Below, in pieces: positions 695 to 5,478 of a stretch of DNA of 64,000 bases (positions are counted from its first letter, which is position 1; each line of letters begins with the position of its first letter). Below the pieces are notes generated by a model, which had not been told where the DNA came from, made no database searches, and saw only the letters and a list, made by a program, of their open reading frames with translations. The position numbers and the translations under genes were made by a program. The stretch comes from Prochlorococcus sp. AG-347-B23. Its GTDB lineage: Bacteria; Cyanobacteriota; Cyanobacteriia; PCC-6307; Cyanobiaceae. The DNA is taken from assembly GCA_003281715.1 (NCBI GenBank), contig QCBE01000005.1, positions 1-64,000 of the forward strand, in the 5' to 3' direction.

Positions 695-1621
695 TTGAAA
701 AAAAGTTTTCTCATGAATTTTTTTAAGAAATTAAATGAAAAAAGAAAAGAACGAAATCTCGAAATAGAAGAAAAGAATAAGGAACTTCTTATAAAAAGGG
801 AAGAGAGGTTAAAAGAGGAAGCTTTAAAAAGAAAAGAAAGAGAAAAAGAAATCGAAAATGAAAAAAAGGAAAAGGCCGATAATTGGAAAGATTTTCTTCT
901 TAGCCGATATAGAGAACATAGATTCGTCTTATATGAAGAATATGTTAATTCGAGTTCGGTTGATCAATATGGAAATGAAGATAATGATTTCTTTGACCAA
1001 GAAGAACTTCTTGAGGTTAATTTATATGATTTAAATGAATATAGCAGAGGATTTAACAGCGGATATAACTATTTTTTCAAAAGTGTAATCATGAGAGATA
1101 TGAGTGCCTCAGAGTTTATGGCTGGTTGGTATAGTTATCAAAGAATTTATAATCCTAAATCTGATGGAGAGGATGCGGTTTGGCAATGGATAGTGGTCAA
1201 ATTACTTTTTGATGTTTTTCAAGAGACAATACCTGAAGTTTATGAAAAGGAAGAACAACGAGTAAATGCAGGATTTAGCGAAGATATGAGTGGCGAGGAT
1301 TATGAGGTCTACTGTGGGAATATCCTCGAAATTGCAGGGTGGGTTGTTGAACAAACATCTAAAACCAATGATCAAGGTGTCGATTTAATTGGCGCAATAG
1401 ATGACTTAAAAGTATGTATTCAATGCAAAAGATATACAAATCCTGTAGGGAATAAAGCAGTTCAAGAAATAATTGCAGGTCAACAATTTTATGGAGGAAC
1501 TCATGCAGTAGTTGTATCTAATGCTGGTTTCACAAAATCAGCACAAACTCTTGCTTCAAAAACAGGAGTAATCTTAATAAGTGATGAGGAGTTAGAAAAT
1601 TTAGAAGACTACCTATATTGA
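695..1621 (+). CDS. Mrr-family restriction endonuclease-like protein with charged N-terminal region
   Basis: C-terminal YEVYCGNILEIAGWVVEQTSKTNDQGVDLIGAIDDLKVCIQCKRY...GTHAVVVSNAGFTKSAQTLA matches Mrr_cat motifs (D...QxK). Confidence 0.85.
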   Translation: MKKSFLMNFFKKLNEKRKERNLEIEEKNKELLIKREERLKEEALKRKEREKEIENEKKEKADNWKDFLLSRYREHRFVLYEEYVNSSSVDQYGNEDNDFFDQEELLEVNLYDLNEYSRGFNSGYNYFFKSVIMRDMSASEFMAGWYSYQRIYNPKSDGEDAVWQWIVVKLLFDVFQETIPEVYEKEEQRVNAGFSEDMSGEDYEVYCGNILEIAGWVVEQTSKTNDQGVDLIGAIDDLKVCIQCKRYTNPVGNKAVQEIIAGQQFYGGTHAVVVSNAGFTKSAQTLASKTGVILISDEELENLEDYLY

Positions 1622-1662
1622 TTGACAATCAATATAAAATAAGGGTCAATTAGTTCTTTTTT

Positions 1663-2844
1663 GTGAATTTCTTTAAAAAGCTTTCTGAAAATTTAAGGTC
1701 AAATAAAAATGAAGAATATCTAGCTGATACTACTGAAGAATATTTAGATGATATCGCTGAAGATGAAATTGAAGAGCCTATAAAAAGGCCTGAAAAATTA
1801 AATATAGATGGAATGAAAGTTAATTTAAGTATTTTTGAGTGGTTGGAAGAAAAGTTTAAAGACGAAATTCCTGAATCATGTATTAAGGCTTATGAAGAGG
1901 AATCCATAAATAATCTTCCAAAATCAATACAAAATGGATATATCAAAGATTTGATTTTACCAATTCCTTTACCTTTGGTTGGTTCAAAGTTATTTGAAAT
2001 TGTCTCTAAGTTTTCTGAAATGGCTAGTAAAGAAACTCAGGAAATTCAAGAGAGATTGGACGAAGGGTTAGAAGACCCTGAAACTGTAGATGTAACATTA
2101 CCTTTTCTTTATACAAGCGTAAGCAATTCAATTTTAAGAAGCACAGAATTTTATCCGGATTTTGATTATTTAAGTAAAGAGATTATTGAAGAATTAAAGA
2201 AAAAAGATAGTCAAAAAAGCTGGACTAAATCAATGGCAAAACATGGTTTTTTTGGGAATTGGGATGAGGTTTATAATCTTCTTTCTCCAACAGGCTTAAT
2301 GAATGCCTATACATGGATGAGAGATATAGAACTCTCAGCTAGTCATGATGATGGAAGCAGTGAAGGTGAATATCTTTTTGGAGACCTTTTTAAAGCTAAT
2401 ACTCCAAATTGGGAAGTATATATTCCAGTAACTATTTTCTCGAAATATAATTCTAATGATGAGATTGGGGAAATTTTAAATAATTATGAAATAGTAGACC
2501 TAATAAAAAAATATGCAGGAATTTCTTTTTCTTATAACCATGAAGGCTCTCCTGAAAAAGAAGTTTCCCAAGTGGAAGATTTAAGTGCAAAAGGATTTGT
2601 ATATTTAATAAGAAATAAAGATATTTATAAAATTGGAATCACAGAAAATACTCTTCGAAGGTTTGGTCAACTCAAACCAGATGAAGTTATTAATGTTGTT
2701 AAATGTTCTAATTATCGAAAATTAGAAAAAGAATTACATAAGAAATTCAAGAAGTATAGGATTCCGCAAACCGAATATTTTAGATTTAATCAGCAACAAG
2801 TCGAAGAGGTAAATAATGAGATGACTGGAGGAGCAAAGTTTTAA
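1663..2844 (+). CDS. Protein with C-terminal T5orf172/GIY-YIG-type nuclease domain
   Basis: GFVYLIRNKDIYKIGITENTLRRFGQLKP...YRKLEKELHKKFKKYRIPQTEYFRF. Confidence 0.8.
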   Translation: MNFFKKLSENLRSNKNEEYLADTTEEYLDDIAEDEIEEPIKRPEKLNIDGMKVNLSIFEWLEEKFKDEIPESCIKAYEEESINNLPKSIQNGYIKDLILPIPLPLVGSKLFEIVSKFSEMASKETQEIQERLDEGLEDPETVDVTLPFLYTSVSNSILRSTEFYPDFDYLSKEIIEELKKKDSQKSWTKSMAKHGFFGNWDEVYNLLSPTGLMNAYTWMRDIELSASHDDGSSEGEYLFGDLFKANTPNWEVYIPVTIFSKYNSNDEIGEILNNYEIVDLIKKYAGISFSYNHEGSPEKEVSQVEDLSAKGFVYLIRNKDIYKIGITENTLRRFGQLKPDEVINVVKCSNYRKLEKELHKKFKKYRIPQTEYFRFNQQQVEEVNNEMTGGAKF

Positions 2845-2902
2845 ATTAAACACTTACATCTTGAATAAAAAGAGAGCTAAGTTTTTTTACCTTCCCAAAA
2901 AA

Positions 2903-2921
2903 TGGACAAATTATGGACAAA
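2903..2921 (+). repeat. Right-end copy of tggacaaattatggacaaa
   Basis: Identical to 650-668. Confidence 0.85.
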
Positions 2922-2933
2922 TGTTGCTTAAAT

Positions 2934-3056
2934 TGTCAGGACAAACTACGCAGGACTAAGCAAAAAAATAGTCATTGCTTGAAAACCTAGTGCTGCACTA
3001 GAGCTGTTAAGTGCTTTGGGAGCACTAGGTCGCAGGTTCGAATCCTGTCGCCCCGA
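2934..3056 (+). repeat. Extended 123-bp att-like unit, copy 2 (tRNA-Pro fragment at 3010-3056)
   Basis: 47-bp tRNA fragment identical to copy 1; upstream 76 bp aligns without gaps to copies at 5356, 13663 and 19017. Confidence 0.88.
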
Positions 3057-3580: not shown

Positions 3581-3676
3581 TTTTTGACTTTATCTACATA
3601 AAAGGGTACAGGGGTTAAATCTATGTAGATTAAGTAGTTTCACGTAACCCTAATGTAGGAAAAGTCAAAAGATACG

Positions 3677-5355: not shown

Positions 5356-5478
5356 TGTCAGTATAAACTAAGCAAGAGTACGCAAGCTATGAGATATAGC
5401 TCGAAAACGTAGTGCTCGCTTTGGGATGTCGAGTGCTTTGGGAACACTAAGTCGCAGTTTCGAATCCTTTCGCCCCGA
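5356..5478 (+). repeat. Extended 123-bp att-like unit, copy 3 (tRNA fragment at 5432-5478)
   Basis: tRNA fragment with 4 mismatches to copy 1; upstream part aligns ungapped to copy 2 (56/81 over the first 81 bp, hand count). Confidence 0.85.

Follow-up and report, generated by a model that had tools for sequence, protein, structure and literature searches.

Genomic islands of Prochlorococcus contain repeated 3' ends of tRNA-Pro, as was reportedly described by Coleman in 2006, and one complete genome considered here has 13 copies, the number reported in that work. Tycheposons, as summarized in the passages of PMC10872708, are elements of 4-200 kb with a recombinase (Hackl 2023), and the same passages describe flexible genomic islands of the additive kind in the Methylophilaceae, in which the 3' end of tRNA-Lys is repeated. 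The locus analyzed here shares with the Prochlorococcus islands and the tycheposons tRNA-anchored cargo, repeated tRNA 3' ends and the logic of site-specific integration, but is only about 2.5 kb long and lacks a tyrosine recombinase. The Methylophilaceae islands are similar in that recurring tRNA 3'-end repeats bound variable cargo, whereas their repeat has 20 bp and stems from another tRNA, and conserved cassette ends are not described in the passages of PMC10872708.

Regarding the cargo, a PD-QxK catalytic domain of the Mrr type is the hallmark that our first protein has in common with the modification-dependent endonucleases Mrr, MspJI and AspBHI. The ICP1 protein Gp88 joins the DNA-binding domain of a rival element to T5orf172 (PMC8263062) and modified DNA is restricted by a DpnI winged helix to which HNH or GIY-YIG domains have been joined (PMC12707154), so that natural as well as designed precedents exist for the swapping of nucleases on one reader. 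We assume that the locus is a non-autonomous cassette of a tRNA-Pro(UGG) array with modular nuclease cargo, most likely used for intracellular defence against phages or foreign DNA, and consider the chances of this explanation to be about even.

A short cassette in a genus-wide tRNA-Pro array

The window, a stretch of 64,000 bp, comprises bases 1-64,000 of a 64,528-bp contig from a high-light-type Prochlorococcus, whose single-cell-like assembly is 76% complete and consists of 48 contigs. As base 1 of the window is also base 1 of the contig, the cassette is located at one end of the draft contig, and since ARAGORN found no intact tRNA in the window, the tRNA-proximal end should lie off the contig. 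All elements that bound the cassette were identified on the plus strand. The left att core (525-571) and the right att core (3010-3056) agree in 47 of 47 positions and represent the 3' 47 bp of tRNA-Pro(UGG); the intact tRNA-Pro in locus L067 has the identical sequence in its 3' portion. The left core is followed by the left end of the cassette (572-690) with a terminator hairpin (595-615, terminator scan) and the arm AAATGGACAAATTATGGACAAA (647-668), which recurs with the same letters at 2900-2921 and is therefore present on both sides of the cassette. This second copy belongs to the right-end module (2897-3009), which contains three GGACAAA arm repeats; the motif, which was chosen after the fact, occurs 12 times on the plus strand of the window and adjoins a core in six cases. 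Further cores were located at 5432, 11081 and 13739 and weaker ones in the vicinity of 16167 and 19093, all of them pointing in one direction.

Only two genes are located between 525 and 3056. The sequence-only reading had proposed an att-flanked element of about 2.5 kb with identical 47-bp cores, identical arm repeats and two genes alone between them, and this anatomy is confirmed, with both open reading frames intact. Its further suggestion that this is the youngest-looking unit is not supported, because identity of core and tRNA is common among cassettes across the genus.

The 160 bp comprising the right end and its core (2897-3056) have matches in 243 of the 267 genus genomes (E<=1e-8), the best of them with 98% identity over 160 bp, and at the loci inspected (L129-L136) the right end borders unrelated cargo, namely DsrE-like proteins, an ECF sigma factor and unknown proteins. 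The left end is conserved in L067, where it adjoins tRNA-Pro, and is partly conserved, with other cargo, in L129-L136. As the ends of cassettes are repeated themselves, no empty site is claimed for the unit. Because the right end recurs beside unrelated cargo in so many genomes, the unit in the window can be regarded as one of the cassettes that make up a tRNA-Pro array found across the genus. Nine complete genomes contain 4-13 cores each, mostly within one island, and the arrays run in the same direction with a median core spacing of 2.46 kb (range 0.2-24 kb, window included). With cores made of tRNA 3' sequence, conserved ends and exchangeable cargo, the unit has the attributes of a tRNA-anchored integrative cassette. 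Cassettes with a single open reading frame and a length of about 650 bp also exist (L129:512-1845), and the array resembles an integron without an integrase of its own.

No recombinase or integrase gene was detected in the cassette or in the window, which sets the unit apart from an autonomous tycheposon with its own tyrosine recombinase beside the tRNA. PF00589 has a single match in the genome, of which 76% is covered: a tyrosine recombinase of 389 amino acids (L120:6171-7340, G000:C1:34170-35336), which is fixed between hemH and cobO-pyrH-frr and kept in 48 of 61 relatives. This protein is a candidate for moving tRNA-Pro cassettes in trans, or an Xer-like enzyme; it is conserved in many cyanobacteria. 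Movement of the cassette would depend either on site-specific recombination at the tRNA core of 47 bp, presumably by a recombinase acting in trans, or on homologous exchange between repeats, and the conserved ends make the mover of DNA through these islands directly testable. Repeated tRNA-Pro islands are known in outline and we do not claim the cassette system itself as new, but the conserved ends and the small integrase-less units may have been described only in part so far.

An Mrr-family nuclease with a mosaic gene

The first gene (713-1621, plus strand) encodes P0001, a predicted Mrr-family PD-(D/E)xK (QxK) nuclease of 302 amino acids (Pfam PF04471, 7e-25; AlphaFold model and Foldseek). 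Translation most likely starts at the ATG at 713 rather than at the TTG at 695, because the homologue in Prochlorococcus sp. AG-347-I19 aligns from that ATG. P0001 consists of a charged helix (residues 2-79), a middle domain (about 65-190) and the Mrr_cat domain (about 191-297), and both the domain and the catalytic D and QxK residues assign it to the Mrr family; the motifs DQGxDLI and IQCK are invariant in eight relatives (D..QCK). Foldseek matches of the confidently modelled part include AF1548, MspJI, AspBHI, Cdn1 and Holliday-junction resolvases. In contrast to MspJI and AspBHI, P0001 combines the catalytic domain with the charged helix and an unassigned middle domain, and no modified-base reader (SRA or recognized winged-helix domain) was found: Pfam gave no match of any kind outside the Mrr domain, and the middle domain was modelled at low confidence. 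Dependence on modified DNA would be suggested solely by the similarity of the modelled Mrr-domain fold to MspJI and AspBHI. The nuclease domain also resembles the Mrr-like domain of ZorD and PADLOC PDC-S02 (2e-16 and 4e-12), but the alignment is confined to the Mrr domain and the two genes between the cores include neither a helicase nor ZorA/ZorB, so that the cassette differs from Zorya with its ZorA/ZorB and ZorD helicase. A hit on ATP synthase b, obtained with the Mrr alignment, was rejected as coiled-coil similarity.

The closest named relative of P0001 is the Mrr protein of AG-347-I19 with 86% identity, which places the window in Prochlorococcus rather than in Synechococcus. Downstream of an intact tRNA-Pro(UGG) (L067:7787-7863), this strain has the terminator and the arm GGACAAATTATGGACAAA that are also present in the window, then the Mrr gene, the right end and a second core, and the DNA is 90% identical to the window from the core to the Mrr stop codon and 92% identical across the right end. 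Divergence is distributed unevenly along the gene: dS is 0.08 and 0.02-0.19 at its ends (0.02-0.19 in the catalytic domain) versus 0.61 and 0.93 for residues 61-190. Judging from the alignment of this one allele pair, the Mrr gene is a mosaic that arose by exchange of the middle domain between alleles; as dN/dS is about 0.2, the mosaic alone is no proof of diversifying selection.

The orphan domain and the link between the two genes

The second gene (1663-2844, plus strand) starts with GTG 41 bp behind the Mrr gene and encodes P0002, a protein of 393 amino acids that places an orphan N-terminal domain ahead of a T5orf172/MUG113 GIY-YIG nuclease. Pfam matches to MUG113 (3e-16) and T5orf172 (4e-14) cover the last 80 residues, the T5orf172 and MUG113 bit scores of 53.3 and 60.0 lie above the curated cut-offs of 20 and 22.3, and within the nuclease domain (residues 311-387, 2593-2823, plus strand) the pattern Y-KIG-R-E-H-E is conserved in the alignment. 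No Pfam family matches the first 300 residues or so. The orphan domain (residues 49-294, 1807-2544, plus strand) found no match as a profile against PDB sequences, and in a profile comparison with the Mrr alignment it aligned to its own fusion copy without independent similarity; the single-sequence model of P0002 reached a pLDDT of 37. ICP1 Gp88 (PMC8263062) and PADLOC PDC-S57 are likewise built of a variable N-terminal part and a T5orf172 GIY-YIG domain at the C-terminus. In P0002, the N-terminal domain shows no detected relation to RepA_N, and the match to PDC-S57 is restricted to the nuclease part (profile positions 4-89 of 212). The window genome encodes a further T5orf172/MUG113 protein on the chromosome (L108:1669-2211) with hydrophobic C-terminal segments, and relatives of the same size occur in many genus genomes.

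The presence of two nuclease domains, the long novel N-terminal region of the second protein and the absence of a methyltransferase gene from a cassette whose two genes encode the Mrr and GIY-YIG proteins had all been noted from the sequence before and are upheld here. The check for co-occurrence of the two genes in other genomes yielded a mixed picture: they do not form a conserved pair, as the exact pair was found once and the corresponding slot of AG-347-I19 contains Mrr alone, but their parts do occur in combination elsewhere. Gene 2 is therefore dispensable for the persistence of the Mrr gene and the strict pair claim is weakened, whereas the functional link is strengthened at the level of domains. 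In one other genome (G336, L097) one open reading frame of 560 amino acids encodes the orphan domain followed by the entire Mrr protein, with an intact tRNA-Pro on one side and a core on the other; residues 1-246 or so of this fusion are 54% identical to the orphan domain of P0002. A mere deletion within the arrangement of the window would not be expected to give this order, and the fusion, as read from the genome, is the strongest evidence for a connection between the two window genes. No further orphan domain was found in overlapping samples of 267 genomes from the genus, 300 from the family and 195 from the class.

Neighbouring genes in other elements also contribute to the part of the co-occurrence claim that stands. 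In 12 genomes with accessory Mrr relatives, counted apart from the window genome, a T5orf172 gene lies within 3 kb of the Mrr gene in two (G442 and G209). The pair in G442 is divergent and has a cassette edge where the contig ends, and its T5orf172 partner (P0012) is a full-length PADLOC PDC-S57 defence candidate (E=9e-76); the pair in G209 is convergent and resides on a tmRNA-anchored element with an integrase. Compared with about 0.03-0.04 expected pairs (P about 0.0005-0.0009), this enrichment is regarded as suggestive, because the test ignores that both kinds of genes favour islands. In G517 (L098:5404-7888) a tRNA-Gly, a tyrosine recombinase and an Mrr relative follow each other, which indicates that the Mrr family is carried by autonomous elements too.

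Both window proteins open with a common leader, MNFFKKLSENLRSN in gene 2 (1663-1704, plus strand), which is also present in the Mrr gene (713), in the Mrr gene of L098 and in P0003, and in no others of 2,767 open frames. The underlying pattern MNFFKKLxE, which was chosen after the fact, stands at the start of both window proteins and of the Mrr proteins of AG-347-I19 and G517. Gene 2 and G517 have an amphipathic leader, whereas that of gene 1 is less so; that the leader substitutes for the membrane helix is speculation.

These observations bear on the alternative that the two genes are independent cargo, with Mrr as the functional unit, either a type IV-like restriction or a DNA-repair nuclease, and gene 2 as a later unrelated insertion. 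The AG-347-I19 cassette with its single gene and high DNA identity and the low dS at both ends of the Mrr gene are in line with such a history, but the fusion in G336, the common leader and the adjoining Mrr and T5orf172 genes in two other elements argue for a connection, and we consider independent cargo unlikely, though it deserves serious attention.

Possible function of the nuclease cargo

Intracellular defence against phages, which had been suggested from the sequence alone, is retained as the most plausible function of the cassette, and we infer it from its parts. The cargo would comprise a soluble Mrr-family PD-(D/E)QxK nuclease with a middle domain that varies between alleles and a T5orf172/MUG113 GIY-YIG nuclease borne on the orphan domain for recognition or recruitment. 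Some feature of the invader may be recognized by the orphan domain, the Mrr middle domain or both, and the DNA could then be cut by either nuclease; the two proteins would act together and protect the cell. Among the defence models, none spans the full length of P0001 or P0002. To our knowledge, little is known about intracellular phage defences in Prochlorococcus; if our assumption is true, the cassette would provide a compact transferable nuclease defence and would show natural reshuffling of recognition and cutting parts.

The nearest broad relative of P0001 is a protein of about 290 amino acids with an N-terminal membrane helix, which is found at a fixed chromosomal site in 187 of 267 genus genomes, including the window genome. 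P0001 is a soluble relative of this nearly core membrane-anchored Mrr protein, whose wide chromosomal distribution means that a housekeeping role in DNA metabolism fits too. The cassette copies might accordingly be dispensable paralogues of membrane-associated nucleases for DNA uptake, turnover or stress response, related to the nearly core anchored Mrr protein and to the core T5orf172/MUG113 protein with hydrophobic C-terminal segments that the window genome also contains. However, accessory Mrr copies adjoin att sites, tRNA or tmRNA genes and no transmembrane helix is present in the copies on cassettes, which makes this explanation rather improbable. One example of the anchored protein is encoded at L095:8102-8974, with counterparts in 186 other genus genomes, and it is nearly core in high-light Prochlorococcus.

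Scans of viral contigs with P0001, P0002 and the orphan domain revealed no close relatives, a scan with the Mrr alignment found five distant Mrr proteins, and phage and plasmid records yielded matches to P0001 in the Mrr domain only and none to P0002. A selfish or competitive gene 2, in which T5orf172 with a captured recognition domain cuts the sites of rival cassettes with the orphan domain and Mrr or spreads cassettes in the manner of a homing-type nuclease, has a precedent in the ICP1 anti-PLE nuclease (PMC8263062) and would suit an orphan domain limited to the cassettes of the window and G336, but is rather improbable given the shared cassette, the short distance behind the Mrr gene and the lack of relatives in these collections.

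Defence by the nuclease cargo can also be extended to a broader and decidedly less probable proposal, that high-light Prochlorococcus has a genus-wide system of integron-like, integrase-less tRNA-Pro cassettes of about 0.6-6 kb with conserved ends, which are moved in trans and carry a new family of defence proteins whose orphan recognition domain sits on either Mrr or GIY-YIG nucleases.

Neither Pfam nor PADLOC confirmed the suspicion that L130 contains another cassette with two nucleases. This cassette (L130:2115-4835) encodes a protein of 155-167 amino acids and an HTH protein of 360 amino acids, and its right end is nearly that of the nuclease cassette. Directly 3' of the Mrr gene in the window, the palindrome TTGATTGACAATCAA is located at 1617-1631. 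Related palindromes of the GATTGACAGTCAATC type were observed at 3676, 4794, 5312 and 9805 as well as in L070 and L097, where they adjoin island genes, and at two sites this type directly precedes a terminator-like GGG...CCC TTTTTT stretch.
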